Shown: positions 50,569 to 64,000 of the stretch, piece after piece
How positions within the stretch are numbered: the first letter of the stretch is position 1
Layout: each line of letters starts with the position of its first letter
Assembly: GCA_009837885.1 (NCBI GenBank)
Contig: VXSP01000046.1
Coordinates: forward strand, 62,001-126,000
DNA: 64,000 nt
Reading direction: 5' to 3'
From: Holophagales bacterium
GTDB lineage: Bacteria > Acidobacteriota > Thermoanaerobaculia > Multivoradales > Multivoraceae
Position numbers and translations under genes: made by a program
The notes under the pieces: generated by a model
What the model saw: the letters and a program-made list of their open reading frames with translations, nothing else
What the model was told of the DNA's origin: nothing
The model's database searches: none

Positions 50569-51972
50569 ATGGCTCGATCCAAGGACCGGATCGGCGACTA
50601 CCACCGGCAGGTCGCCGACAAGCTCATCGAGCAGCTGAAGGCCGGTACCGCTCCCTTCCAAAAGCCCTGGAAGCCCGGGGAGCGCTCCCTCCCCGAGAAC
50701 CTCACCACCGGTCGCAGGTATCGCGGTGGCAACAGTCTCTTTCTGAGCGTCGCCGCCCAGGACAAGGGCTACACCGACAACCGCTGGGGAACCTACCGAC
50801 AGATCGTCGGCGCCGGCGGCCACGTCAAGAAGGGCGAGCGCGGTACCAAGGTCCTCTTCTTCTCCACCGAGAAGGTTGAGCAGGCCAAGGACGAGCAGGG
50901 CCGACCCAGGCTCACCGATTCCGGCGAGCCTGTCTACGAACGTCGTGAGACGGACCGGCCCTACGTCCGCACGTACACGGTCTTCAACGCCGAACAGACG
51001 GGCGGCCTGCCCGAGCGCCCACCGGCCTCCCCTGAGCCCGAATGGAAGGCCCACGAGCAAGCCGAGGCGATCATCGAAGCGAGTGGCGTCGACGTCCGCC
51101 ACCAGGCCGGCGATCGCGCCTACTACAACGTCCGCAAAGACCAGGTCGTTCTCCCCGAGCCAGGGCAGTTCCCCAGCGCCGGCAGCTACTACCAGACGGC
51201 AATCCACGAGTTGGGCCACGCCACGGGCCATCCCGATCGCCTGAACCGCGACACCCTCGGCAAGAAGTTCGGCAGCCCTGAATACGCGAGGGAGGAGCTC
51301 CGCGCCGAGATCGCCGCGATGATGACCGGCGAGAAGATCGGCCTGGGCCACGAACCCCAGAACGCCAGCGCCGCCTACGTCGCCAGCTGGGTGAAAGCCC
51401 TTGAAGACGACCCCAGGGAGATCTACCGCGCCGCGGCCGACGCGGAGCGGATCTCCCGCTATCTCATCGAACCCGCGCGCGAGCGCATCGAACAGCGCGA
51501 GCAACAGGCCCCGAAACAGCCCGCAGCCGAGGTTCAGGACCGTCAGCCTGGCCCGGAGCTCGAGCGCGGCGACGAAGCCGCTCCCACCCAGGCTCTCCAG
51601 GCCGCGGCGGCCAACCAGGAGGCCGGCGCCCGGTTCAACCAGAACATCTCCCGCGCGGCTGACGCCGCCTTGGACGTCCTCCGCCGCAACGGCAACGAGG
51701 ACCGTCCCCTCGAGCAGCTAATCCGCGACCTCCAGGCCGTCCACTTGGCCGCCTCGCAGAATGCCTACACGCCGAAGACGGCCGACTTCCGCAGACTTCG
51801 CGGCGACCTGCAGAACCTTGCGATCGACGCCCAATCGCTCAGTTCGGACGAGCGCAAGGCCGTCCTCATCGTCGCCGACAACTTCGCCAACCAGGCCCAA
51901 GGCCACGCGCTTCACGACCGCGCGATCGCCGAACGAGCGTCCGCCCGCGACGACGGACCCACTCGCGGATAG
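50569..51972 (+). CDS. ardC: ArdC-family antirestriction protein (ssDNA-binding domain + zincin metalloprotease)
   Basis: PFQKPWKPGERSLPENLTTGRRYRGGNSLFLSVAAQDKGYTDNRWGTYRQI, GERGTKVLFF, zinc motif YYQTAIHELGHATGHPDRL. Confidence 0.9.
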   Translation: MARSKDRIGDYHRQVADKLIEQLKAGTAPFQKPWKPGERSLPENLTTGRRYRGGNSLFLSVAAQDKGYTDNRWGTYRQIVGAGGHVKKGERGTKVLFFSTEKVEQAKDEQGRPRLTDSGEPVYERRETDRPYVRTYTVFNAEQTGGLPERPPASPEPEWKAHEQAEAIIEASGVDVRHQAGDRAYYNVRKDQVVLPEPGQFPSAGSYYQTAIHELGHATGHPDRLNRDTLGKKFGSPEYAREELRAEIAAMMTGEKIGLGHEPQNASAAYVASWVKALEDDPREIYRAAADAERISRYLIEPARERIEQREQQAPKQPAAEVQDRQPGPELERGDEAAPTQALQAAAANQEAGARFNQNISRAADAALDVLRRNGNEDRPLEQLIRDLQAVHLAASQNAYTPKTADFRRLRGDLQNLAIDAQSLSSDERKAVLIVADNFANQAQGHALHDRAIAERASARDDGPTRG

Positions 51973-51977
51973 CTCCG

Positions 51978-52877
51978 ATGAGCCGCTTCCCGGACCCCAG
52001 AGATGCTCATCGCCAGGGCCAGAGCGCGCCGTCTCGAGAACGCGGCCACCGCCGCGAGCTCGCCGGCCGACACTCAGAGCGCCGCTCCTTCCAGGACCGG
52101 TTGCAAGCGTCCCTGGTGGACGTAGCCATCCACCGCGCTGTCGCCTCGCGCGACCTGGTCGACCGCCAGTTCGGAGGCCATCTCTTCGCCGGCCGCCGCG
52201 GCATCGACAACCTCAAGAAGTCCGGCCTGGTCGAGGAGCACGAACTCCGCGACACGAAGACCGCTCGCATCACCAAGGTCCTCACGGCGACGCCGGCAGG
52301 CCGTCGCCTCGCCGGCGACGTGGCTCCTCTGCGGGGCTGGGCCTCCGACCAGCGCACTTGGAGCGGTCTGGGCAAGAACGCCGACCTCAAGCACGACCTG
52401 GCTCTCTACCGGGCCGTCGCGGAAACCCGTGAGCGCCTGGCCGAGCGCGGCCTCCACCTTCGGCGCGTCCGGCTCGACGCCGAGATGCGCGGCGAGATGA
52501 TGAAGCGCACGGAGGCCGTCCGCGCCGCGCACGGCCGCAATGCGGCCGACGCCCTGCGCGAGGGAATCGCCGAGCGACTTCAACTGCCCCTTGACGACAA
52601 GGGGGCGGTCCTCTGGCCAGACGCGCAGATCGAGGTTGCCCGCGAGCCGGACGGCCCGGTCGAAGGCCGGGTCAACATCGAGATCACCACCGAGCACTAC
52701 TCCCGCGCCTCGATCGCCGCGAAGAGCGCCGCGGGCTTCGCTCTCTTCCCGGCGAACCCGAAGGCCGCCCGTCACCTCTCGGCGACTTTGAGCGGCCTTG
52801 GCTCGTCCACTGGCGGCCGCGATGCCGCGAGCGGCAGTGGCCGCTTCCGCGGCGAAGGCGGACTCCTAGACCTATGA
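51978..52877 (+). CDS. Mobile-element hypothetical protein with probable winged-helix domain
   Basis: SLVDVAIHRAVASRDLVDRQFGGHLFAGRRGIDNLKKSGLVEEHELRDTKTARITKVLTATPAGRRLAGD reads as a wHTH; located in the conjugation operon. Confidence 0.5.
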   Translation: MSRFPDPRDAHRQGQSAPSRERGHRRELAGRHSERRSFQDRLQASLVDVAIHRAVASRDLVDRQFGGHLFAGRRGIDNLKKSGLVEEHELRDTKTARITKVLTATPAGRRLAGDVAPLRGWASDQRTWSGLGKNADLKHDLALYRAVAETRERLAERGLHLRRVRLDAEMRGEMMKRTEAVRAAHGRNAADALREGIAERLQLPLDDKGAVLWPDAQIEVAREPDGPVEGRVNIEITTEHYSRASIAAKSAAGFALFPANPKAARHLSATLSGLGSSTGGRDAASGSGRFRGEGGLLDL

Positions 52878-53625: not shown

Positions 53626-53943
53626 GTGCACACCTGGCGCATCAGCTTCGGAGTCACCCTGGTCCTGGCCGCTCTCCTGGCGTTCTACGCCTCAGCGCGC
53701 TTGGACTTCCTCGCGCCCCACAGCCGCCTGATCGTTCAGGACTATTGGCTCCCCATCACCCTTTACACCTTCCTCGCCGCGGCCACCTTCATGGTCGCCC
53801 TGGCGGCCGTGCTGCGCCGTCTCGGCCTCCACGACGTGGGCAGGAAGGTCGACCTGGTCGAACGCTCTCTCCGCCGTGGAGAGGGCGACCCCGACTTGAC
53901 GCGTCGCCTCGCCGATCAAGAGCAAGGCGAGTTCGTCGAGTAA
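53626..53943 (+). CDS. Small membrane protein of the conjugation operon (two TM)
   Basis: ORF 105 aa; ISFGVTLVLAALLAFYAS and LPITLYTFLAAATFMVALAAVLRRL; GTG start. Confidence 0.55.
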   Translation: MHTWRISFGVTLVLAALLAFYASARLDFLAPHSRLIVQDYWLPITLYTFLAAATFMVALAAVLRRLGLHDVGRKVDLVERSLRRGEGDPDLTRRLADQEQGEFVE

Positions 53944-53972
53944 CACCACTCCCCCAACAAAGGAGGACTTCC

Positions 53973-54290
53973 GTGACCCCAGAAACCCTCAACGCGAAGC
54001 CGCTGGCTCCGCCCTCCCGACGCCGGAAACTCACCATCCGGCTCACCACCCTCCTCGTTCTGGTTCCCGCCCTGGCCATGGCTCAAACGAGCCCGTGGAC
54101 CACGGCCGTCAACCAACTCCAGGCGGCCTTCACCGGTCCGATCGCGCGGGGCCTCAGCCTGGTGGCGCTTGTCATCAGCGGCCTCATGTTCGCCTTCGGT
54201 GAAGGCGGCAGCAAGAAGCTCCTGGCCGGCGTGATCTTCGGACTCGCCATGACGATGGGCGCCGTCCAGTTCCTCGGATGGATCACCTGA
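53973..54290 (+). CDS. trbC: TrbC/VirB2-type conjugative pilin
   Basis: Signal peptide ending PALAMA, then TSPWTTAVNQLQAAFTGPIARGLSLVALVISGLMFAFGEGGSKKLLAGVIFGLAMTMGAVQFLGWI. Confidence 0.85.
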   Translation: MTPETLNAKPLAPPSRRRKLTIRLTTLLVLVPALAMAQTSPWTTAVNQLQAAFTGPIARGLSLVALVISGLMFAFGEGGSKKLLAGVIFGLAMTMGAVQFLGWIT

Positions 54291-54508
54291 AGCGGACGGG
54301 CAACGTGGACCTCTTCCCTGACCCCGCGTTCATGGCGCTGGTTACCAGCGCTCTGCTCGCCGCCTTCAGCTACCCACGCCGCCGGCGTTACCCGGCGGCC
54401 GTGTCCATGGCCGCTCTATCGATCGGCCTCAACGAGCTCCACCACGCGGCGGCCAGTCTGCCCGCCGACCTCATCCCCTTCGCCGTCGGCATCGCGACCG
54501 GCCTCTAG
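54278..54508 (+). CDS. Small membrane protein between virB2- and virB3-type genes
   Basis: 76 aa ORF overlapping the trbC stop; hydrophobic segments LVTSALLAAFSY, LIPFAVGIATGL. Confidence 0.4.
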   Translation: MDHLKRTGNVDLFPDPAFMALVTSALLAAFSYPRRRRYPAAVSMAALSIGLNELHHAAASLPADLIPFAVGIATGL

Positions 54509-54514
54509 CTCCCG

Positions 54515-54805
54515 TTGCGCGGCGAGAAACCATGGTACGGCCACCCGGCGCTCTCACGCCCGATGAAGATCCTGGGCGTGGAGCGCCGGTGGTTCCTCCT
54601 CTCCGCCACCTTCGGCGGAGCAATCTGGAACGGCCTTAACTCGATCATCACCGCAGTCCTCGTCTTCGCCGTCCTCTACGCGGCCGGCTTCCTCGCGTGG
54701 AAGCGCGATCCCAACATGCTTTCGATCCTCGCGAAGGCCGGCTCGGGCCGCCCGCGGTACGACGCCGGCAAGGAGTCCAAGTGGCATCTCCACCTCATCG
54801 AATGA
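54515..54805 (+). CDS. trbD: TrbD/VirB3-like protein
   Basis: HPALSRPMKILGVERRWFLLSATFGGAIWNGLNSIITAVLVFAVLYAAGFLAWKRDPNMLSIL; typical VirB3 topology and position; TTG start. Confidence 0.75.
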   Translation: MRGEKPWYGHPALSRPMKILGVERRWFLLSATFGGAIWNGLNSIITAVLVFAVLYAAGFLAWKRDPNMLSILAKAGSGRPRYDAGKESKWHLHLIE

Positions 54806-54866
54806 CCACTCCGTTCTTCGCTGAAACCGCAGACCAACTCCCTGTCTCCGCGCCGTCAGCAACAGC

Positions 54867-57287
54867 ATGAATCTCGACACCGAACGCACCGATCACGAGG
54901 CTGCCGGCAGCCTCGCCGAGGAACTCCCCTATTGGGGCTGGCTTGACGAGCACCCCTTCTGCCTGACACGCGACGGCGAACTCCTCGCCATCGCCGAGCT
55001 CTCCCAGGCCGTCGTTGACGGCCGCACCCCGCAACAGATGGACGAGGTGCTCAATCGCTGGCTACGCCTCCTCTCGTCCCTCGATCCCCAGACCCGCCTC
55101 TACTTCTATCTCCTCCGCCGTCCGGGCCGCCTGGCAGCCATCGACGGCCTTGACGGCGTAGCCGCCATCTCCCAGGAGAAGCGCCGGCGCTTCCTTGAGC
55201 GCCGCGTCCAGGACCTCCGCGCCTACGTCGTCTGGTCGCACGACGCCCAGCTCAAGGCCAACGCACGAACCGGCAACGCCGGCGTCCTCGCGGCGGTCCG
55301 GGAGTGGATCAAGAACCGCACCAAGCCTGACGAGTGCGCCTTCCTCCTCCGCCACGTCACTGACGCGGCCGAACGCTTCCGCCAGCTCGTGGACGCCTCC
55401 GCAGCCCTGGCTTCCGACGTCACTCCGCTCCGCCTGCTTTCGGCGCCCGAGGCCAGCGCCGTCCTCTCCGACCTCATCAATCGGCCCGGTCAACCCTGGC
55501 ATGGCGATCACATACCGAGCGCGCTCAACTGGCGCCTCGCGTTGTCGGAACTCGAGGCGGAGCGACGCTTCCTCCGCCTCGATGGCCAACCCCTGATCAT
55601 CTACAACCTGACCTCCCCTCCCGTGCAGGCCCGAGCGAATCTCCTGCAGGAGCTCTACCGCCTCGAAGCCCTGCTCACCGTGTCCCTGGAGTGGCGGCCG
55701 CAGCCGCTCGCTTCCTCGCGACGGAAGATCCGGAGCGTTCAGCGTCACTACTTCAGCAAGCGCTACTCAATGGTCGCGCACATGCAGGACTCCCAAGGCA
55801 CCGCCGCGGCCATGGTCGATTCTGCGGCCGACGCTGAATCCAGCCGCATCGCTCACGCCCTGGTCGAGCTCGAAACCGAAGGAGTCGCCTACGGCGACCT
55901 CTCCCTGACGATCGCCCTTCACGGCGACGACCTGGCTCAGATCGAGGCCCTCGATGCCGAACTCTTCCGCATCTTCGGCTCAGCCGACGCCAAGGTCATC
56001 CGGGAAGGCTTCGGCCAGCTACCCGCCTGGTGGAGCCGCTTGCCCGGGCAACCCCGCAAGCGCCAGATCCGGAGCGTCTTCGGCAGCGCCGGCGTCGCCG
56101 CTTGCCTCGCACCGTTGTTCGGGCCCCCTCCTGGCCAGGCCGAATGCAAGCACCTGACGCGGCCGGCCATGGCGACCTTCGAGACGCCCTGGCGCACTCC
56201 CTACCACTACGACCTCTTCGCCGGCGGCGATGTTGGTCACACCCTCATTCTGGGCGCCACCGGCGCCGGCAAGAGCTTCGCCCTCAACTTCCTTCTCGTC
56301 CAGGCCCAGCAGTACTCCCCTCGCATCCTCGTCCTCGACCTGGGCGGCTCCTACAAGTGGCTCACACAGTTCATCGGCGGCGGCTACCTGGAGCTGAACC
56401 CTGACGCCACCGGCGCAGACGTTGCCCTCAAGCCCTTCAGTCTTCCTCCCGGCGAGCGGACCTTCAGCTTCCTCACCGGCTGGATCACCCGCCTCCTCCG
56501 CATCGGCGGCTACGAGCTCAAGGGCGAGGACACCACCGAGCTCCGCGAACGCATCGAGGACCTCTACAGAAGCCCAGCCCCGGAGCGTTCACTCTCCTCC
56601 CTGGTCCGCACCCTGCCTTCCGCCATGTGGCCAGCTATGAGCCGCTGGCACGGTGAGGGCGCCTGGGCGCGCTTCTTCGACGGAGGCGGTGAGGACACCC
56701 TCGAACTCGCCGACTGGCAGGTCATCGACCTCGCGGGCGCCGCCGAACACGACGACCTCTGCGAGGCCGCGCTCTTCTTCCTGCTCGAACGGCTACGCCT
56801 GGCCCTGGACGCTCCCACCGAAGCCGGCCGCGTGAAGCTCATGGTGGTGGACGAAGCCTGGCGCTATCTCAACGATCCTGCCGTCCTCACCTACCTCGCG
56901 GAAGCCGCGAAGACATGGCGCAAGCGCAACGCCGCCCTGGTCCTCGCCACCCAGAGCGCCGTCGACCTCACCGACACGGACGGCGCCCAGGCCCTCCTCG
57001 AATCACTCCCCACCAAGCTCTTCCTCGCCAACCCGGATCTGCCCGCCGCGGTACAGAACACCTTCCGGCTCAACGACACCGAAATGCAGACGATCCGCGG
57101 GCTTCTTCCGAAGCGCGAGATGTACCTCCGCCGCGCCAACGAGGCCGGCGTCGTCCGCCTCGAAGTGGATCCGGAGTCCTACTGGCTCTACACCAGCTCG
57201 CCCGTCGACAGTGAACGCCGCGCCGCGGCCGTCGCCGAGCACGGCCTGGCCGATGGCCTTGCCGTCCTTGCCAACAACAGGAGGTAA
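54867..57287 (+). CDS. trbE: TrbE/VirB4-type conjugation ATPase
   Basis: Walker A HTLILGATGAGKSFALNFLLVQ, Walker B KLMVVDEAWRYL, LVLATQSAVDL. Confidence 0.95.
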   Translation: MNLDTERTDHEAAGSLAEELPYWGWLDEHPFCLTRDGELLAIAELSQAVVDGRTPQQMDEVLNRWLRLLSSLDPQTRLYFYLLRRPGRLAAIDGLDGVAAISQEKRRRFLERRVQDLRAYVVWSHDAQLKANARTGNAGVLAAVREWIKNRTKPDECAFLLRHVTDAAERFRQLVDASAALASDVTPLRLLSAPEASAVLSDLINRPGQPWHGDHIPSALNWRLALSELEAERRFLRLDGQPLIIYNLTSPPVQARANLLQELYRLEALLTVSLEWRPQPLASSRRKIRSVQRHYFSKRYSMVAHMQDSQGTAAAMVDSAADAESSRIAHALVELETEGVAYGDLSLTIALHGDDLAQIEALDAELFRIFGSADAKVIREGFGQLPAWWSRLPGQPRKRQIRSVFGSAGVAACLAPLFGPPPGQAECKHLTRPAMATFETPWRTPYHYDLFAGGDVGHTLILGATGAGKSFALNFLLVQAQQYSPRILVLDLGGSYKWLTQFIGGGYLELNPDATGADVALKPFSLPPGERTFSFLTGWITRLLRIGGYELKGEDTTELRERIEDLYRSPAPERSLSSLVRTLPSAMWPAMSRWHGEGAWARFFDGGGEDTLELADWQVIDLAGAAEHDDLCEAALFFLLERLRLALDAPTEAGRVKLMVVDEAWRYLNDPAVLTYLAEAAKTWRKRNAALVLATQSAVDLTDTDGAQALLESLPTKLFLANPDLPAAVQNTFRLNDTEMQTIRGLLPKREMYLRRANEAGVVRLEVDPESYWLYTSSPVDSERRAAAVAEHGLADGLAVLANNRR

Positions 57288-57293
57288 CTCATC

Positions 57294-58133
57294 TTGCACA
57301 TTCCACCGCCGATCGCGGCCGTGATCGCCCTCGCTTCGGCTCTTCCACTCGCGGCCCAGGATGCCCACATCCTGCGCCTGGACGCTTCCGTCGACGCGGT
57401 CTGGCAACTCAACACCCGCGTCCGTCACACCACCGTCATCACCCTGCCGGCCTCCGAGAACATCCTCGACTTCGTCGTGGGCGACCTGGACTACTGGCAC
57501 TTGAGCGGAAGCGCGAACGTCGCCTTCCTCAAGCCCACCGAGCCGGGCGTCAAGACCAACATCGCCCTGGTCTGCGAATCCGGCCGGATCTACCCCTTCC
57601 TCGTCTCCGAATCCTCCGAAACACCGCCCCATCTCGTGGTCCGCTTTGACCCTGCGGAACCCGACTTGGCCGCGGCGGACGGTGAAGCTCACCGGCCAGC
57701 CTTCGTCGCCGCCGACCAGGTCGCCTCCTACCAGAGCATGGCCAGAGCGGCCGCCGAGGCGGCCGCTGATCACCGGCGGACCGCGACCGAGGAGATCGCC
57801 GCGGCCAAGGCCGACGCCGCGGACCAGGTCAACGGCTTCCGCGCCGAGTACCCGACTCGTGTCCGCTTCCCCTACCGTCTCCAGGAGAAGGCGAAGCGCT
57901 GGCCCTTCCTGGTCGAGGGCATGTGGCACGACGGCCAGTTCACCTATCTGCGAAGCCTCTCCCAGGAGTCTCCAGCCCTCTACGAACGGAAGGACGGACA
58001 GCCTTCCCTGATCCCCTACGACCTGACCGAGGACGGGCTCTACGTCGTCCGGCGAGTCATCGGCGACGGCTGGCTCCAGATCGGTAAGCAGCGCGTCACC
58101 TGGACCTTCGACGAACCCGACCCCCTCCATTAG
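57294..58133 (+). CDS. trbG: TrbG/VirB9-type conjugal transfer protein
   Basis: VWQLNTRVRHTTVITLPASENILDFVVGDLDYWHLSGSANVAFLKPTEPGVKTNIALVCESGRIYPFLVSE; C-terminal DGLYVVRRVIGDGWLQIGKQRVTWTF. Confidence 0.85.
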   Translation: MHIPPPIAAVIALASALPLAAQDAHILRLDASVDAVWQLNTRVRHTTVITLPASENILDFVVGDLDYWHLSGSANVAFLKPTEPGVKTNIALVCESGRIYPFLVSESSETPPHLVVRFDPAEPDLAAADGEAHRPAFVAADQVASYQSMARAAAEAAADHRRTATEEIAAAKADAADQVNGFRAEYPTRVRFPYRLQEKAKRWPFLVEGMWHDGQFTYLRSLSQESPALYERKDGQPSLIPYDLTEDGLYVVRRVIGDGWLQIGKQRVTWTFDEPDPLH

Positions 58134-58135
58134 CC

Positions 58136-59428
58136 ATGCCCGACTGGAAGCAAATGGTCCCCAAGCCGGTCGGCTCTATCCCGGCCGGCCTGATGAACAA
58201 GCTGGTCGCCGGCCTCGCCGTCGTCCTCGTCATCGCGATCATCGCCGCCACCATAGGCGGTGCTGGAGAGGAGGAGGATGGCGCCGAAGCCGACGCTCTT
58301 GACCAGGCCCCGGCCGATCCCTTCATGGCGGATCGGCTGGACAGCGAGGTCGAGAACCAGCTCCAACTCGCCGTCGGCGAAGCCGATCAGCGGGAGGCGG
58401 ACGCGCAGCGCGAAGCGATCCGGGACCGCAACCTCGAACTCCTCGCACCGGATCCGGATCCCGGTGAAAGCGTTCTTCTCCGCCTCGCCGGCATCGCCGA
58501 CGACGACGCCGAAGAGGAGCCCGATCCTTGGGACCCCGAGGCCTTCGCCCCTGAGGAGGCAGAACTCCGCCTCAAGCTCCACCTCGAGGCGGTCGAGCGC
58601 AGGCAGCGCTCCCTTCTCGCCGTGCCCGTCGCCTACTCCGCCCGCAAAGTCGACGACGACGCCGGCCACGACAACCCCCCTCCGCCCTCGCCGCACGAAC
58701 GTCTCCTCGACACCATTCTCGGGACCGCCGCAGCCCAACAGTCGACCACGGGGACAGGCCCCGGGGCCGCGGCGGTCCCACCGGGCGGCACGCTTGACGT
58801 GCCGCTTCCCGACTCCGACAACCTGCCCTCCTACCGCGCACCCGACCAGGTCAGCTCCCCGGCCGATCCGCGCGGCAGCCACAGAATCTATGAAGGCTCC
58901 TTCGTCGAAGCCGTCCTGATCACCCAACTGAGCGGCGACTACCCGAGCCCCGCCGTCGCTCAGGTCGCCGTCCCCTTCTACAGCGGCGATCGCCAGACCA
59001 CTCTGATCCCCCGCGGTAGCCGCTTCATCGGCACGGTTCAGGCCGTCCGCCACCAGGACCAAACCAGGCTCGCGATCGGCTTCCACCGCCTTGTGTTCCC
59101 CGACGGCCGCTGGGCCGCGCTCCGCTTCCAGGGCCTCAATCAACTCGGAGAAGGCGCGCTCAAGGACCAGGTCGATCGCCACTACCTGAGCACCTTCCTC
59201 GCCGCCGGCGGCGTCGGCCTCCTGAGCGGCCTCGCGGCGGCAGGCGCCACCGTTCAAGACCAGTTCCAGCTTGGCACCGCGAGGAGCTTCTCCGAAACCG
59301 GCATCCAGATCATGGACCGGTTTCTCAACCGGCTCCCCACCATCACCATCCGCGCCGGCCACCGCATGCGCGTCTGGTTCACCAGCGACCTCCTCATTCC
59401 ACCCCCCGACACAGGAGACATCCAATGA
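58136..59428 (+). CDS. trbI: TrbI/VirB10-type conjugal transfer protein
   Basis: YEGSFVEAVLITQLSGDYPSPAVAQVAVPFYSGDRQTTLIPRGSRFIGTVQAVRHQDQTRLAIGFHRLVFPDGRW. Confidence 0.92.
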   Translation: MPDWKQMVPKPVGSIPAGLMNKLVAGLAVVLVIAIIAATIGGAGEEEDGAEADALDQAPADPFMADRLDSEVENQLQLAVGEADQREADAQREAIRDRNLELLAPDPDPGESVLLRLAGIADDDAEEEPDPWDPEAFAPEEAELRLKLHLEAVERRQRSLLAVPVAYSARKVDDDAGHDNPPPPSPHERLLDTILGTAAAQQSTTGTGPGAAAVPPGGTLDVPLPDSDNLPSYRAPDQVSSPADPRGSHRIYEGSFVEAVLITQLSGDYPSPAVAQVAVPFYSGDRQTTLIPRGSRFIGTVQAVRHQDQTRLAIGFHRLVFPDGRWAALRFQGLNQLGEGALKDQVDRHYLSTFLAAGGVGLLSGLAAAGATVQDQFQLGTARSFSETGIQIMDRFLNRLPTITIRAGHRMRVWFTSDLLIPPPDTGDIQ

Positions 59429-60288
59429 CCCCCACCTCACCACTGCGACGCACCGTCGCCACCCTCCTCCCCATCCTCATCCTTGCCGGCGGAATTCCCG
59501 CCCTCGCCATATTCGGCTTTGGCGACATCGTCCTCGACCCCGCCAACCTCGTCGAGAACGCGCTCACCGCCGGCTTCCAGGACTTGATCAACGACACCAT
59601 CCAGAACCAGCTTGACCACCTCGAGGAGAAAGCCCTGGGCGAGATCGGGAAGCTCACCGAGAGCTTCGCCGAGCTCACGGGACTACCGATGCCTCTCCTC
59701 GACAACTTCGACACCCTCACTTGGGCCGGCGACTTCAGAGGCGATCCCGGTCAACTCCTCCAGAACTTCGCCAGCATGCAGGACCCGAACGCGGACCCGC
59801 TCACCGATTACTGGCGGCAGTACCTGGCCCAGGCCGACACCGTTTCGCGCCAGCGCTACGCGAACACCTTCCGCGACGTCGCCGGCGCTTCCGACAAGTG
59901 GCTTGCGCAGCGCGAGCAGGCCGACCGCGCCCGCATCTTCGACTACACCGCACTCGACAGCGCCGAGCGCATCATCGAGCTACTCGGCAACGCGTCTGAC
60001 GCCGTGGAGCGTAGCCGCGGTCAGACCAACCTCAGCGACACGGCGCTCGCTCAGGAACAGCTTGCCAACCAGATCACGGTCGCCGAGATCGACATGGCCG
60101 TCGCCGAACTCCTGGCCCAGACCACCGTCCGCGAGGCGATGGACCGGCAGACCCTCGAACTCCAACGCCGCCACCAGCTCGAAGCCTGGGTCACCGCCGA
60201 GCGGACCGAAGCTAGGCAAGCCGACCGCGCCCAGAACCGCCTTCGAGGACAGCGCAACGCTTGGCGTCAGGCCTTCCTCCTCGACTGA
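59425..60288 (+). CDS. trbJ: TrbJ/VirB5-like conjugal transfer protein
   Basis: Signal peptide, FGFGDIVLDPANLVENALTAGFQDLINDTIQNQLDHLEE, long helical C-terminus; position between virB10- and virB6-type genes. Confidence 0.7.
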   Translation: MTPTSPLRRTVATLLPILILAGGIPALAIFGFGDIVLDPANLVENALTAGFQDLINDTIQNQLDHLEEKALGEIGKLTESFAELTGLPMPLLDNFDTLTWAGDFRGDPGQLLQNFASMQDPNADPLTDYWRQYLAQADTVSRQRYANTFRDVAGASDKWLAQREQADRARIFDYTALDSAERIIELLGNASDAVERSRGQTNLSDTALAQEQLANQITVAEIDMAVAELLAQTTVREAMDRQTLELQRRHQLEAWVTAERTEARQADRAQNRLRGQRNAWRQAFLLD

Positions 60289-60300
60289 TCCACCGGACCG

Positions 60301-61443
60301 ATGGCCAGTCGTCCCTCCGCTACAGGCCGATTCTCGGCGACCTGCGTCTTCAGGCGTAAGTCCTGCCCCGGATCCGGATCTGGGGCCTCACGCCGACCGC
60401 TAGTGCTGCTCCTCGCAGCCGCGGCGCTTCTCCTCCTCACCTCCTTACCGGCCGCCGCCCAGCTGCCGAACCAGGTCAACCCGAACACCGTCGGCCAGCT
60501 CCCTCAGTTCGTCGACACCGCCATCAACATCGTCCTCTCGGGCACCCCGCAGAACACGATCCTCGGATGGGGCCGCCAGATGATGCGAGGCATCGTCCTC
60601 ATCCTCATCGTCTGGACCGGACTCCGCGTCGCCTTCAGCGGGACCTTTCACACCTGGGAGCTCATCAAGTTCGTCATGACCTTGCTCATTCCCTGGACGA
60701 TGGTGGAGTCCTACTACACCCCCATCCCAGGGCTCGGCACCTCGTTCGTCGACCTGATCACAGAACAGGGTAACCAGATCATGCAGCTCTTCGGCGCGGA
60801 CATCCTCGCCCAGGGCGCGGCCACTGTCATGGAACTCGCCGAGGATCACATGCGGCTAGTCGGCGAGGAAGCCGCGTCCCTCAACATCTGGAACGCGATC
60901 CGCACCGGTGGCAAACAGGTCACCCACCTAGCGCTCTTCGTTGCCATCTTGGGGAGCTTTGTGCTCGGGATGATCGTCGTTGTCGCCCTCGCCCTTGCTC
61001 AGGTCATCTTCGCCAACGTCGCGACCGCGGTCCTCACCACGCTCGGGCCGCTCTTCATCCCGTTCATGATCGTGCCGAAGATGGACTTCCTCTTCTGGGG
61101 CTGGTTCAAGGCCATGATCCAGTACTCCCTCTACAGCGCGGTCGCCGCCGTCATGGTGAGTATCTGGACCCGGATCATCCTCACATACACGCGCTCGCTC
61201 GAAGCCACCGACTTCACCATCAACTCGTTGACCGCGGCCACCGGCGTCTGGCTACTGCCAGTCTTCGCCGTGATCGTGTGCGCCATCGTCTCCATCGTCA
61301 AGATCGGCGATATCGCCGGCATGATCGTCGGGGCCGGCAGCGACGGCGGCGGCTTCATCGGCGGAGCCTTCCTGGCTGGCCGCATCGTCGCCGCCCCAGC
61401 CCGCGTAGCCGCCGCGCCGCTGAAGGGAGGACTTCCCACGTGA
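60301..61443 (+). CDS. trbL: TrbL/VirB6-type conjugal transfer membrane protein
   Basis: Polytopic; GWGRQMMRGIVLILIVWTGLRVAF, QVIFANVATAVLTTLGPLFIPFMIVPKMDFLFWGWFKAMIQYSLYSAVAAVMVSIWTRII. Confidence 0.85.
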   Translation: MASRPSATGRFSATCVFRRKSCPGSGSGASRRPLVLLLAAAALLLLTSLPAAAQLPNQVNPNTVGQLPQFVDTAINIVLSGTPQNTILGWGRQMMRGIVLILIVWTGLRVAFSGTFHTWELIKFVMTLLIPWTMVESYYTPIPGLGTSFVDLITEQGNQIMQLFGADILAQGAATVMELAEDHMRLVGEEAASLNIWNAIRTGGKQVTHLALFVAILGSFVLGMIVVVALALAQVIFANVATAVLTTLGPLFIPFMIVPKMDFLFWGWFKAMIQYSLYSAVAAVMVSIWTRIILTYTRSLEATDFTINSLTAATGVWLLPVFAVIVCAIVSIVKIGDIAGMIVGAGSDGGGFIGGAFLAGRIVAAPARVAAAPLKGGLPT

Positions 61444-62099
61444 GCCAATCCAAGCCGAACCCCGGCAAGGAGTTCGCCGACATATGGGGCGAGATCGTCG
61501 TTTCCAACCGTCACTTTCGCCTCGCCACCTACGCTCTCGCGGCCATCCTTGGCCTTCTCCTCGTCATCGTCGTCCGTCTCTCCAGCGTCGAGCTTCCCAA
61601 GCCCATCGTCATTCGCGTCGACGAGGTCGGGCGAGCCGAAGCCCTCGCCTACGAGGCCGTCGAAGCCCAGGCCGATCCCCTGGACCCGACCACCAAGTAC
61701 TTCCTCGCGGCGTTCGTCAGTGACCACTACAGCCGGCGTCAGGCCACCGCCCGAAACGCATGGAGCCGCTCCCTCAACTTCCTCGTCACGGAACTGGCGG
61801 ACGGGGCCTTCCGCCGCGACGGCCAGGCCGTCGCAACCGTGGCGGCCGGCCTCGCGGAGGAGGAGCGGCAGGTCGAGAACGTCCGCCTCTCCATTCAGCC
61901 GCAGCCCGAGGCCCCGCATTCCGCCACGGCCGACTTCGACGTCGTCGTCTTCAAGGACGCCGCGGAGGTCTCGCGAGAGCGCTGGAGCCTCGCCATGCAG
62001 TTCATCTTCCTGGAGCAGGTCCCGCCCAGCCTCATCACCGTCAACCCCATGGGCATCCTCGTGACCTACCTCCAAGCGGATCAGGCCGTCGACTTCTGA
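61440..62099 (+). CDS. trbF: TrbF/VirB8-type conjugal transfer protein
   Basis: GTG start overlapping the trbL stop; FADIWGEIVVSNRHFRLATYALAAILGLLLVIVVRLSS, VTVNPMGI-type ending SLITVNPMGILVTYLQADQAVDF. Confidence 0.82.
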   Translation: MSQSKPNPGKEFADIWGEIVVSNRHFRLATYALAAILGLLLVIVVRLSSVELPKPIVIRVDEVGRAEALAYEAVEAQADPLDPTTKYFLAAFVSDHYSRRQATARNAWSRSLNFLVTELADGAFRRDGQAVATVAAGLAEEERQVENVRLSIQPQPEAPHSATADFDVVVFKDAAEVSRERWSLAMQFIFLEQVPPSLITVNPMGILVTYLQADQAVDF

Positions 62100-62100
62100 C

Positions 62101-63078
62101 GTGGCGCTCAAGGCTCCCGCTGTCCCGCACCTGGCCGGCCGCGACGCTGCGCTGCGCGACCTCGACTTCCGAGAGTGGGAAGCCGCTTGGCTCACCCTCG
62201 TCTGCCTCCACTCCGGCGTCTTTACGAGGACCCAATTCACAGAGCATCACGCCTGCTCTACTGACACGACTCATGCCTTCGTCCGCCGCCTGGTCGACGC
62301 CGGCATCGCCAGGGAGCATCCGCTTCCCGAGGTCGACACCAGGCTCCAGTACACCCACGTGCATGGCCGCAGCCTCTACCGCGCCCTGGGCATCGAGAAC
62401 GTCCGGCATCGCCGGGCGGCCGAGGACGTGGTTCTGTTCCGTCGTCTCCTCTCCTTCGACCACGTGGTTCGGCATCCCCGCCTCCCCTGGCTCGCCACGG
62501 AGCCCGAGAAGGTCGCTCACTTCACCGGCCGCGGCCTTCGCCTCGACCAGCTCCCGAGCCGCCTCTACGGCGGCCCGGCGAAGCGCACCCGGCGCTACTT
62601 CGCACTGAAGCTTCCGATCGCCGCCGACGAAACGTCGGCGACGTTCGTTTACGTCGACCCCGGCCGCAATACCGACCGCGAACTACAGCGCTGGGCTGCC
62701 GAGCACCATGCTCTCTGGAGCCACCTCCGAGCCGCTCGAACTGAGGTCCGCGTTGCCGTGGTGGCGCGGACCATCACGGCCCAGCACCACCTCTCCCGGA
62801 AGGTCGCGGCCTGGGCCAACGCTAGCTCGACAGCTCAGCCGCTCACCGAAGACGAGCGGCAGACCTTGGCCGCGGCGGACGCCGATCTCGACGTCGCCCT
62901 CGCCACCGGCAATCCCCGATCACTCGAGCGCTGGGGCGGTCTCAATCCCTGCCGCCGCCTCGTCATCTCCCTTCGGACACGAGCGGATCTTGAAGGCGCC
63001 GGCGACACTTCGAACCCACGCATCGACGCCTATTCGTCGCACCACGCTCGCGGTCTCGCGCCCCAGGCTCTCGCATGA
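62101..63078 (+). CDS. Winged-helix protein, replication-relaxation-like, in the conjugation operon
   Basis: LDFREWEAAWLTLVCLHSGVFTRTQFTEHHACSTDTTHAFVRRLVDAGIAREHPLPEVDTRLQYTHVHGRSLYRALGIENVRHRR; long C-terminal alpha/beta region. Confidence 0.5.
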   Translation: MALKAPAVPHLAGRDAALRDLDFREWEAAWLTLVCLHSGVFTRTQFTEHHACSTDTTHAFVRRLVDAGIAREHPLPEVDTRLQYTHVHGRSLYRALGIENVRHRRAAEDVVLFRRLLSFDHVVRHPRLPWLATEPEKVAHFTGRGLRLDQLPSRLYGGPAKRTRRYFALKLPIAADETSATFVYVDPGRNTDRELQRWAAEHHALWSHLRAARTEVRVAVVARTITAQHHLSRKVAAWANASSTAQPLTEDERQTLAAADADLDVALATGNPRSLERWGGLNPCRRLVISLRTRADLEGAGDTSNPRIDAYSSHHARGLAPQALA

Positions 63079-63214: not shown

Positions 63215-63244
63215 TCGGGCTCCCTTCCCCGAATGCGCCCTCCC
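63215..63244 (+). other. Candidate oriT nic region
   Basis: TCGGG-CTCCCTTC-CCCGA inverted repeat directly followed by ATGCG/CCCTCCC, resembling (from memory) IncQ/MOB_Q nic sequences. Confidence 0.3.
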
Positions 63245-63252
63245 GGGCGCAG

Positions 63253-63281
63253 CGACCCGACCGCACGAGGCGGTCGGGTCG
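63253..63281. repeat. Perfect 12-bp inverted repeat hairpin
   Basis: CGACCCGACCGC-ACGAG-GCGGTCGGGTCG. Confidence 0.85.
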
Positions 63282-63379
63282 GGACGTGAGCGACCCCGCC
63301 TTTCGGCCGCCTGGTGCGGCACGAAAGGCTCTCCCGTTTTCGGCCCTTGTGCCGGGCCGCGGGAGGGTCGCTCACGTCC
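63282..63379. other. Putative three-way-junction structured element (RNA or ssDNA)
   Basis: P1: GGACGTGAGCGACCC (63282-63296) / GGGTCGCTCACGTCC (63365-63379). P2: GCCTTTCG/CGAAAGGC (63298-63305 / 63322-63329) with inner GCCGC/GCGGC. P3: CTCCCG/CGGGAG (63331-63336 / 63360-63365) with inner GGCCC/GGGCC. Confidence 0.7.
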
Positions 63380-63415
63380 AGAGTGATCCCTGCGGGAAGG
63401 CTCAGACTGGACGCC

Positions 63416-64000
63416 ATGACCACCGCGAACGACACGCCCGCGCCGGCGGCCGCGCGTCTTATCGGCCGCCTTCTCTGGCCGGTGGTCGTAGGCGCCGGCG
63501 TTCTGGTGTTGACGCTCCGCTTCGCTGCTTGGCCAAGCCCAGGCAGCGTCGCCTGGCTCGACTCCCTCGCCCTACGAACCGCCGCCGACTTCGCCCTCGT
63601 GCGCGCGGCCTGGTGGGCCACTCTCGCTACCGCGCTCGTGGTCGCGGCGAACTTGATCCCCGCCGCGGTCCGACGCACTCTCGATCGCGGGGGCCGCGTC
63701 GCCGGCGCCGGCGTTCACCGCCGCCTCGGCCGGCTTCTCCGGGCGCTGCGCAGGATCCTCACGCTCCGCCTACTGGCCGCCCTCTCGGTCGGTTTCGGAG
63801 CCCTCCGGTGGGCCGGCCAGGTCCGGCCCTTTCCAGCGACAGGCGACGATGCCGTTCTTGACTTCATCGCGTACCACGATCCCGCGGTCCACGCCCTCAT
63901 CCGGGCCTGGCACGTCGCGGCACCCGGCGTCGTTGCGTTCGGAGGAGTCCTCCTCCTCTCCGGGGCGGCCCGCGTCTGGCTCGGTTCGCGAGCCGAGTCC
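63416..64000 (+). CDS. Membrane protein of the conjugation module, possibly the N-terminus of a type IV coupling protein (partial, runs off the right edge)
   Basis: Open from ATG 63416 to the window end; TM segments IGRLLWPVVVGAGVLVLTLRFAA, WWATLATALVVAANLIPAAV and GVVAFGGVLLLSGAARVWL. No ATPase motif is visible yet. Confidence 0.35.
   Translation, partial: MTTANDTPAPAAARLIGRLLWPVVVGAGVLVLTLRFAAWPSPGSVAWLDSLALRTAADFALVRAAWWATLATALVVAANLIPAAVRRTLDRGGRVAGAGVHRRLGRLLRALRRILTLRLLAALSVGFGALRWAGQVRPFPATGDDAVLDFIAYHDPAVHALIRAWHVAAPGVVAFGGVLLLSGAARVWLGSRAES

Follow-up and report, generated by a model that had tools for sequence, protein, structure and literature searches.

What is the strongly folded DNA that lies between two genes of a conjugation module in an acidobacterial genome? 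We addressed this question for a window of 64,000 nt, the whole stretch analysed, from a Holophagales bacterium (GCA_009837885.1, contig VXSP01000046.1, positions 62,001 to 126,000, forward strand; home genome and contig labelled G000 and C37). The folded element is intergenic, with the gene of a 325-aa protein, P325, upstream (ending at 63078) and virD4 downstream (ATG at 63416). A sequence-only reading had described a perfect 12-bp hairpin (63253..63281), a 15-bp closing stem and two inner hairpins forming a three-way junction (63298..63329 and 63332..63364), and the observation is confirmed at all of these positions, as is the spacing of 36 nt between the stem end and the start codon. The left arm of the stem, GGACGTGAGCGACCC (63282..63296), includes the conserved core GAGCGACCC, and the right arm, GGGTCGCTCACGTCC (63365..63379), is supported by fold, alignment and covariation. 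Folded as RNA, positions 63253-63379 have a minimum free energy of -100.5 kcal/mol, the average for shuffled sequences being -62.2 (z -9.2). The z scores are -10.4 for DNA and -11.2 for the minus-strand RNA, and no shuffled sequence matched the native stability in any of the three cases (0/200 for DNA). The conserved unit exceeds this segment as it also comprises a 6-bp hairpin upstream, GCGCCC-TCCC-GGGCGC (63235..63250; present in 14 of 24 home-genus elements), and a motif downstream, ATCCCTGCGGGAAGG (63386..63400, plus strand), which can form the mini-hairpin TCCC-TGC-GGGA and is a candidate nic region. A search of 4227 Rfam families gave no match to the element, the best scores being far under the gathering thresholds, so the earlier statement that it belongs to no known RNA class holds. 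No convincing iteron-type direct repeats were found around it.

The downstream gene had been read as a membrane-protein gene of a conjugation module. The gene is that of a VirD4/TraG-type coupling protein (PF10412, PF12696), an 820-aa product whose 5' part occupies 63416..64000 (+) and which runs beyond the window. The ICE transfer region begins with an ArdC-type antirestriction protein or zincin (50569..51972, +; PF08401, PF18818), followed by the winged-helix protein wHTH2 (51978..52877, +), T4SS genes identified by Pfam as TrbC/VirB2, VirB4, VirB9/CagX, VirB10/TrbI, VirB6/TrbL and VirB8 together with a VirB5 gene assigned by position only (53745..62099, +), and P325 (62101..63078, +), an orphan wHTH protein that co-occurs with the element and is a candidate relaxosome component. 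The home order is ArdC, wHTH2, VirB2, VirB4, VirB9, VirB10, VirB5-position gene, VirB6, VirB8, P325, element, VirD4 and VirB11, with ParA and RHH genes after VirB11, past the window. Seven distant ICE loci have the order VirB genes, wHTH2, P325, repeat, VirD4 and VirB11, and the wHTH2 gene is directly 5' of P325 in most distant loci. One ICE unit of 29.4 kb (G008:C3, L141-L144) is bounded by identical 3.3-kb direct repeats that encode a XerC/D-like recombinase and a BrnT/BrnA toxin-antitoxin pair. The home contig carries a second recurrent element beyond the window end, GGGCCTG..CTCGCCGCC..GGGGGTGAGCGGCGAAAGCCACAGRCCC (L003:4320-4400 and L003:6205-6290), just 5' of two small genes for 86-aa and 185-aa proteins, and its copies could fold too.

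A DNA search with the element returned many home-genus copies, several per genome, and an alignment of 24 of these elements was used to assess whether the fold is maintained. Both arms of the closing stem vary in step, for example from GGACGTGAGC/GCTCACGTCC to GTGCCGGGAGC/GCTCCCGGC, among other changes. Compensatory double changes occur in 15 of the 28 consensus pairs, including four pairs in each of the two inner hairpins, and the 47 double-change cells compare with 10.2 after shuffling (0/500 shuffles reach 47); the signal was lost when the partner was shifted by 1-3 columns. The sequence-only reading had staked its proposal on such compensatory changes, and the three-way junction passes this test. 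The 12-bp hairpin is lineage-specific, with 10-12 of its 12 pairs retained in 12 home-genus elements and the structure degraded in the remaining 12. The motif ATCCCTGCGGGAAGG, directly after the stem, hardly varies across the 24 elements, and its mini-hairpin, which reads TCCT-TCC-AGGA in two relatives, shows a compensatory change from G-C to A-U. Two copies (L041 and L042) have an internal deletion that leaves the stem intact and removes the first inner hairpin, the L041 copy adjoining a P325 homologue. At another locus, L179 (G120:C24), an 11-kb stretch contains four copies of the repeat close to integrases, which suggests hitchhikers that are nested or arranged in tandem.

P325 homologues are present in 9 of 24 genomes of the family; across the Acidobacteriota, 35 of the 396 genomes sampled have one, and these 35 represent 19 genera. 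The most stable 130-nt fold is directly 3' of P325 in 16 of 22 distant 3.5-kb loci, against approximately 3 if the folds were placed at random. An inverted repeat whose outer stem varies around the core GAGCGACC...GGTCGCTC was recognised in these stretches; it was found in all 20 of the larger loci, starting 60-241 nt past P325 in 19 and 3 kb away in the sole exception, L129. Double changes occur in 15 of 22 pairs of the distant repeat arms (80 cells versus 27.5 shuffled; 0/500), and the core is invariant, so the constraint acts on sequence in the core and chiefly on pairing in the outer stem. Screening the 396 genomes with the pattern GAGCGACCC-N38-68-GGGTCGCTC identified 21 genomes, compared to a handful for the reversed control pattern, and P325 is encoded by 16 of these 21 repeat-bearing genomes compared to 19 of the 375 genomes without the pattern (Fisher p 5e-15). 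The repeat is missing within 420 nt 3' of P325 for homologues L040, L053 and L059-L063, and none is visible near L097 and L115. The sequence 3' of P325 in L060-L063 is similar to the leader of the gene for the 86-aa protein mentioned above (L003:4190-4400), and in L059 a homologue of this gene comes after P325. A hairpin, GGCGGCG-N-GCCGCC, precedes the repeat by 62-71 nt in 11 of 19 distant loci (L121-L140) and is perhaps the counterpart of the 63235-63250 hairpin. One genome without P325, G300 (L165 and others), has 13 pattern matches with a different interior, GAGCGACCCGGCC..GGCCGGGTCGCTC, which look like another repeat family.

By sequence, P325 has no family or match in Pfam, NCBIfam or the PDB, and it was not found in PLSDB plasmids or viral contigs. 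Its AlphaFold2 model (pLDDT 86) matches only MarR-like wHTH folds in the PDB, and its best viral fold match is gp146 of phage G (E 1e-5), a strong member of the Replic_Relax family (E 4e-25), although P325 itself has no match to PF13814 and its profile comparison with MOBC is not significant. A MarR-like protein encoded directly 5' of the repeat could be taken to indicate an ordinary terminator, or an operator through which P325 regulates its own expression. We consider this extremely improbable, as the repeat is far oversized for such a site, lies after the P325 gene instead of before it and is retained where P325 is not nearby, and no intrinsic terminator, in which a T tract would follow a GC hairpin, was found at the element.

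Distant loci without a nearby T4SS comprise wHTH2, P325, the repeat and often an HTH_17 excisionase-like gene, followed by an integrase that is either a tyrosine integrase or a large serine recombinase. Integrase elements of the home genus also contain P325, and no wHTH2 was found beside it. For repeats without an adjacent P325, 10 of 18 loci encode an integrase no more than 5 kb away; P325 is approximately 4 kb off in one locus of this kind, L187. The integrase adjoins tRNA-Gln (L127), tRNA-Leu (L128 and L139), tRNA-Lys (L185) or tmRNA (L196), these five loci including repeats both with and without an adjacent P325. The repeat is thus common to T4SS-bearing conjugative elements and to elements without a T4SS, which is the distribution sought in an origin of transfer (oriT). 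Integrative elements that carry a transfer signal, with or without mobilization genes, have been termed iMOB and iOriT (PMC11389934), and the elements described here resemble them in having an integrase by a tRNA gene, no nearby T4SS and a transfer signal with or without mobilization genes (PMC11389934). They differ in that their mobilization is predicted and that both the transfer signal and the mobilization proteins are unlisted.

This distribution bears on whether the element acts as a structured RNA, either as a virD4 leader or attenuator or as a small RNA with a post-transcriptional role. Such an RNA would account for the location shortly 5' of the virD4 ATG, the very stable RNA fold, the covariation and a mini-hairpin, AGGAAGG, near a start codon in L064-L066, but in elements lacking a T4SS the repeat lies by integrases and the region examined contains no virD4, and in the core not only pairing but also sequence is constrained, as a protein site would be. 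The absence of an Rfam match and of a detectable sigma-70-like promoter near the element (the latter weak evidence) also speaks against it. A cis-acting virD4 leader is disfavoured because the element is also found in mobile elements without a nearby virD4, and we regard an RNA function overall as unlikely. Proximity to integrases, multiple copies in some genomes and coincidence with contig ends could alternatively point to an attachment or recombination site, or to a transposon end. However, the repeat is internal to the elements, it is the integrase and not the repeat that adjoins the tRNA gene, and in T4SS loci the repeat is between P325 and VirD4, making this explanation very unlikely; as for the contig ends, draft assemblies are expected to break at repeats. 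Three readings had been offered from the sequence, namely a structured RNA of a new kind, a single-strand origin and single-stranded DNA folded as a protein site, and the last of these, as a relaxosome target, comes closest. Given the conserved partners, that is P325, its wHTH partner, VirD4 and integrases by tRNA genes, a role at the DNA level in conjugative transfer is indicated, and the element is probably the oriT, or its core, of an Acidobacteriota ICE family and its hitchhikers, with a proposed relaxosome of P325 and wHTH2 and a predicted hand-over to VirD4/VirB.

The HUH MOBP/Q relaxase domain PF03432 is absent from six genomes (G000, G326, G382, G124, G407 and G131), and G008 carries it on contig C3, beyond the limits of the 29.4-kb ICE unit. 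Relaxase families beyond PF03432 were covered through the 25 Pfam families listed for this one unit, which include families for T4SS, ArdC, ParA, BrnT/BrnA and recombinases; no relaxase was among those listed. The partner proteins that would initiate transfer are not recognized by databases as a transfer enzyme family. MOBC corresponds to PF13814 (Rel_PF13814/MobC) (PMC5357655), and its relaxases belong to the PD-(D/E)XK group with an N-terminal winged helix (PMC12857230). A winged helix of the MarR-like type is found in the models of both P325 and wHTH2, and 19 aligned wHTH2 homologues have an invariant PD...E pattern (P215, D216, E236 and others) with H140 and D141 conserved. In the PDB fold search for wHTH2 only wHTH folds were matched and no PD-(D/E)XK core. 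The wHTH2 of L107 scored 24.7 bits against Replic_Relax PF13814 (E 2.9e-5; cut-off 25.3), other members scoring lower, most well under the cut-off, or not at all. As a MOBC control we used pAM373, since the CloDF13 record has no annotated MobC, and the pAM373 protein scored 27.1 bits. Profile comparison of wHTH2 with MOBC gave P 0.004 and a probability of 8%, involving the wHTH part only. Based on these profile scores we do not class the system as a MOBC member, and the link of P325 and wHTH2 to the Replic_Relax/MOBC group is marginal by sequence and suggestive, with wHTH2 a candidate MOBC-like nicking subunit. We also considered P325 and wHTH2 as sequence paralogues and rejected this, their profile comparison not being significant.

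The closest parallel is provided by the oriT region of the enterococcal MOBC plasmids pAM373 and pAD1, which have a TraX relaxase and a TraG-like coupling protein, with a large near-perfect inverted repeat between the coupling-protein and wHTH relaxase-type genes; their relaxase combines a wHTH with PD-(D/E)XK-like motifs (PMC12857230). In the typed MOBC plasmid pAM373, the interval from the TraG-like gene to the replication-relaxation gene contains an inverted repeat with perfect arms of 25 nt nested in a repeat with 18-nt arms, and four relatives have the same layout (arms of 24-26 nt across all five). The succession of coupling protein, large inverted repeat and wHTH relaxase is therefore already known in a conjugative system, and a large inverted repeat beside relaxase-type and coupling protein genes is likewise what we observe here. 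The likeness extends to the PD...E motif and Replic_Relax score of the L107 wHTH2, and to the resemblance of the P325 model to the Replic_Relax phage protein. The systems differ in several respects: the repeat sequences have no similarity and the proteins only marginal similarity, the gene order is coupling protein, repeat, relaxase in pAM373 and pAD1 versus P325, repeat, VirD4 here, and the present system has two wHTH proteins in a Gram-negative VirB/D4 context in Acidobacteriota. A further likeness is to the oriTs of HUH relaxases (IncP and IncQ types), in which an inverted repeat is followed by a short invariant single-strand region, the position held here by ATCCCTGCGGGAAGG, but no HUH relaxase was found in the ICE. 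The motif ATCCCTGCGGGAAGG may also resemble nic motifs. The best reading places the element as an oriT with a diverged MOBC-like relaxosome.

On this basis, the large inverted repeat with its conserved core (GAGCGACC/GGTCGCTC) would be the binding site of a relaxosome composed of P325 and wHTH2, and one strand would be nicked in or near the repeat. The PD-(D/E)XK-like motif makes wHTH2 the more likely nicking subunit, with P325 presumably binding or organizing the site, and VirD4, encoded next door, would pass the strand to the VirB T4SS. Hairpins may form on the exposed strand and serve in recognition, or in termination and rejoining. Integrated elements carrying the repeat with P325, or the repeat alone, are predicted to be mobilized by the ICE. 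The same components could instead constitute a double- or single-strand replication origin of the excised circle with P325 as its initiator, given that Replic_Relax is named after replication-relaxation, that a single-strand origin had been proposed for the element, that rolling-circle origins are hairpin-rich and that excised ICEs may replicate. A constant site by virD4 in ICEs and solo copies by integrases favour a transfer signal, rendering an origin of replication in place of an oriT improbable, although an oriT and a rolling-circle origin may coincide and the two readings are not mutually exclusive.

Conjugative DNA movement in the Acidobacteriota is little described, and our literature search on relaxases in Acidobacteria/Acidobacteriota found nothing on it. 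Whether the oriT proposed here represents a phylum-wide, unlisted class is evenly balanced in our estimation; such a class would combine a folded inverted repeat, a fixed core and a two-protein wHTH relaxosome, which could represent either a new relaxase family or a remote branch of MOBC, and nested hitchhikers would exploit the class by carrying the repeat, alone or with the protein. Restriction-enzyme-like relaxases may have a second, independent lineage, for which this system is a candidate. If the oriT reading holds, relaxase-based tools would overlook such elements, and a 20-nt core together with one protein profile would reveal ICEs, mobilizable elements and oriT-only hitchhikers throughout the phylum.
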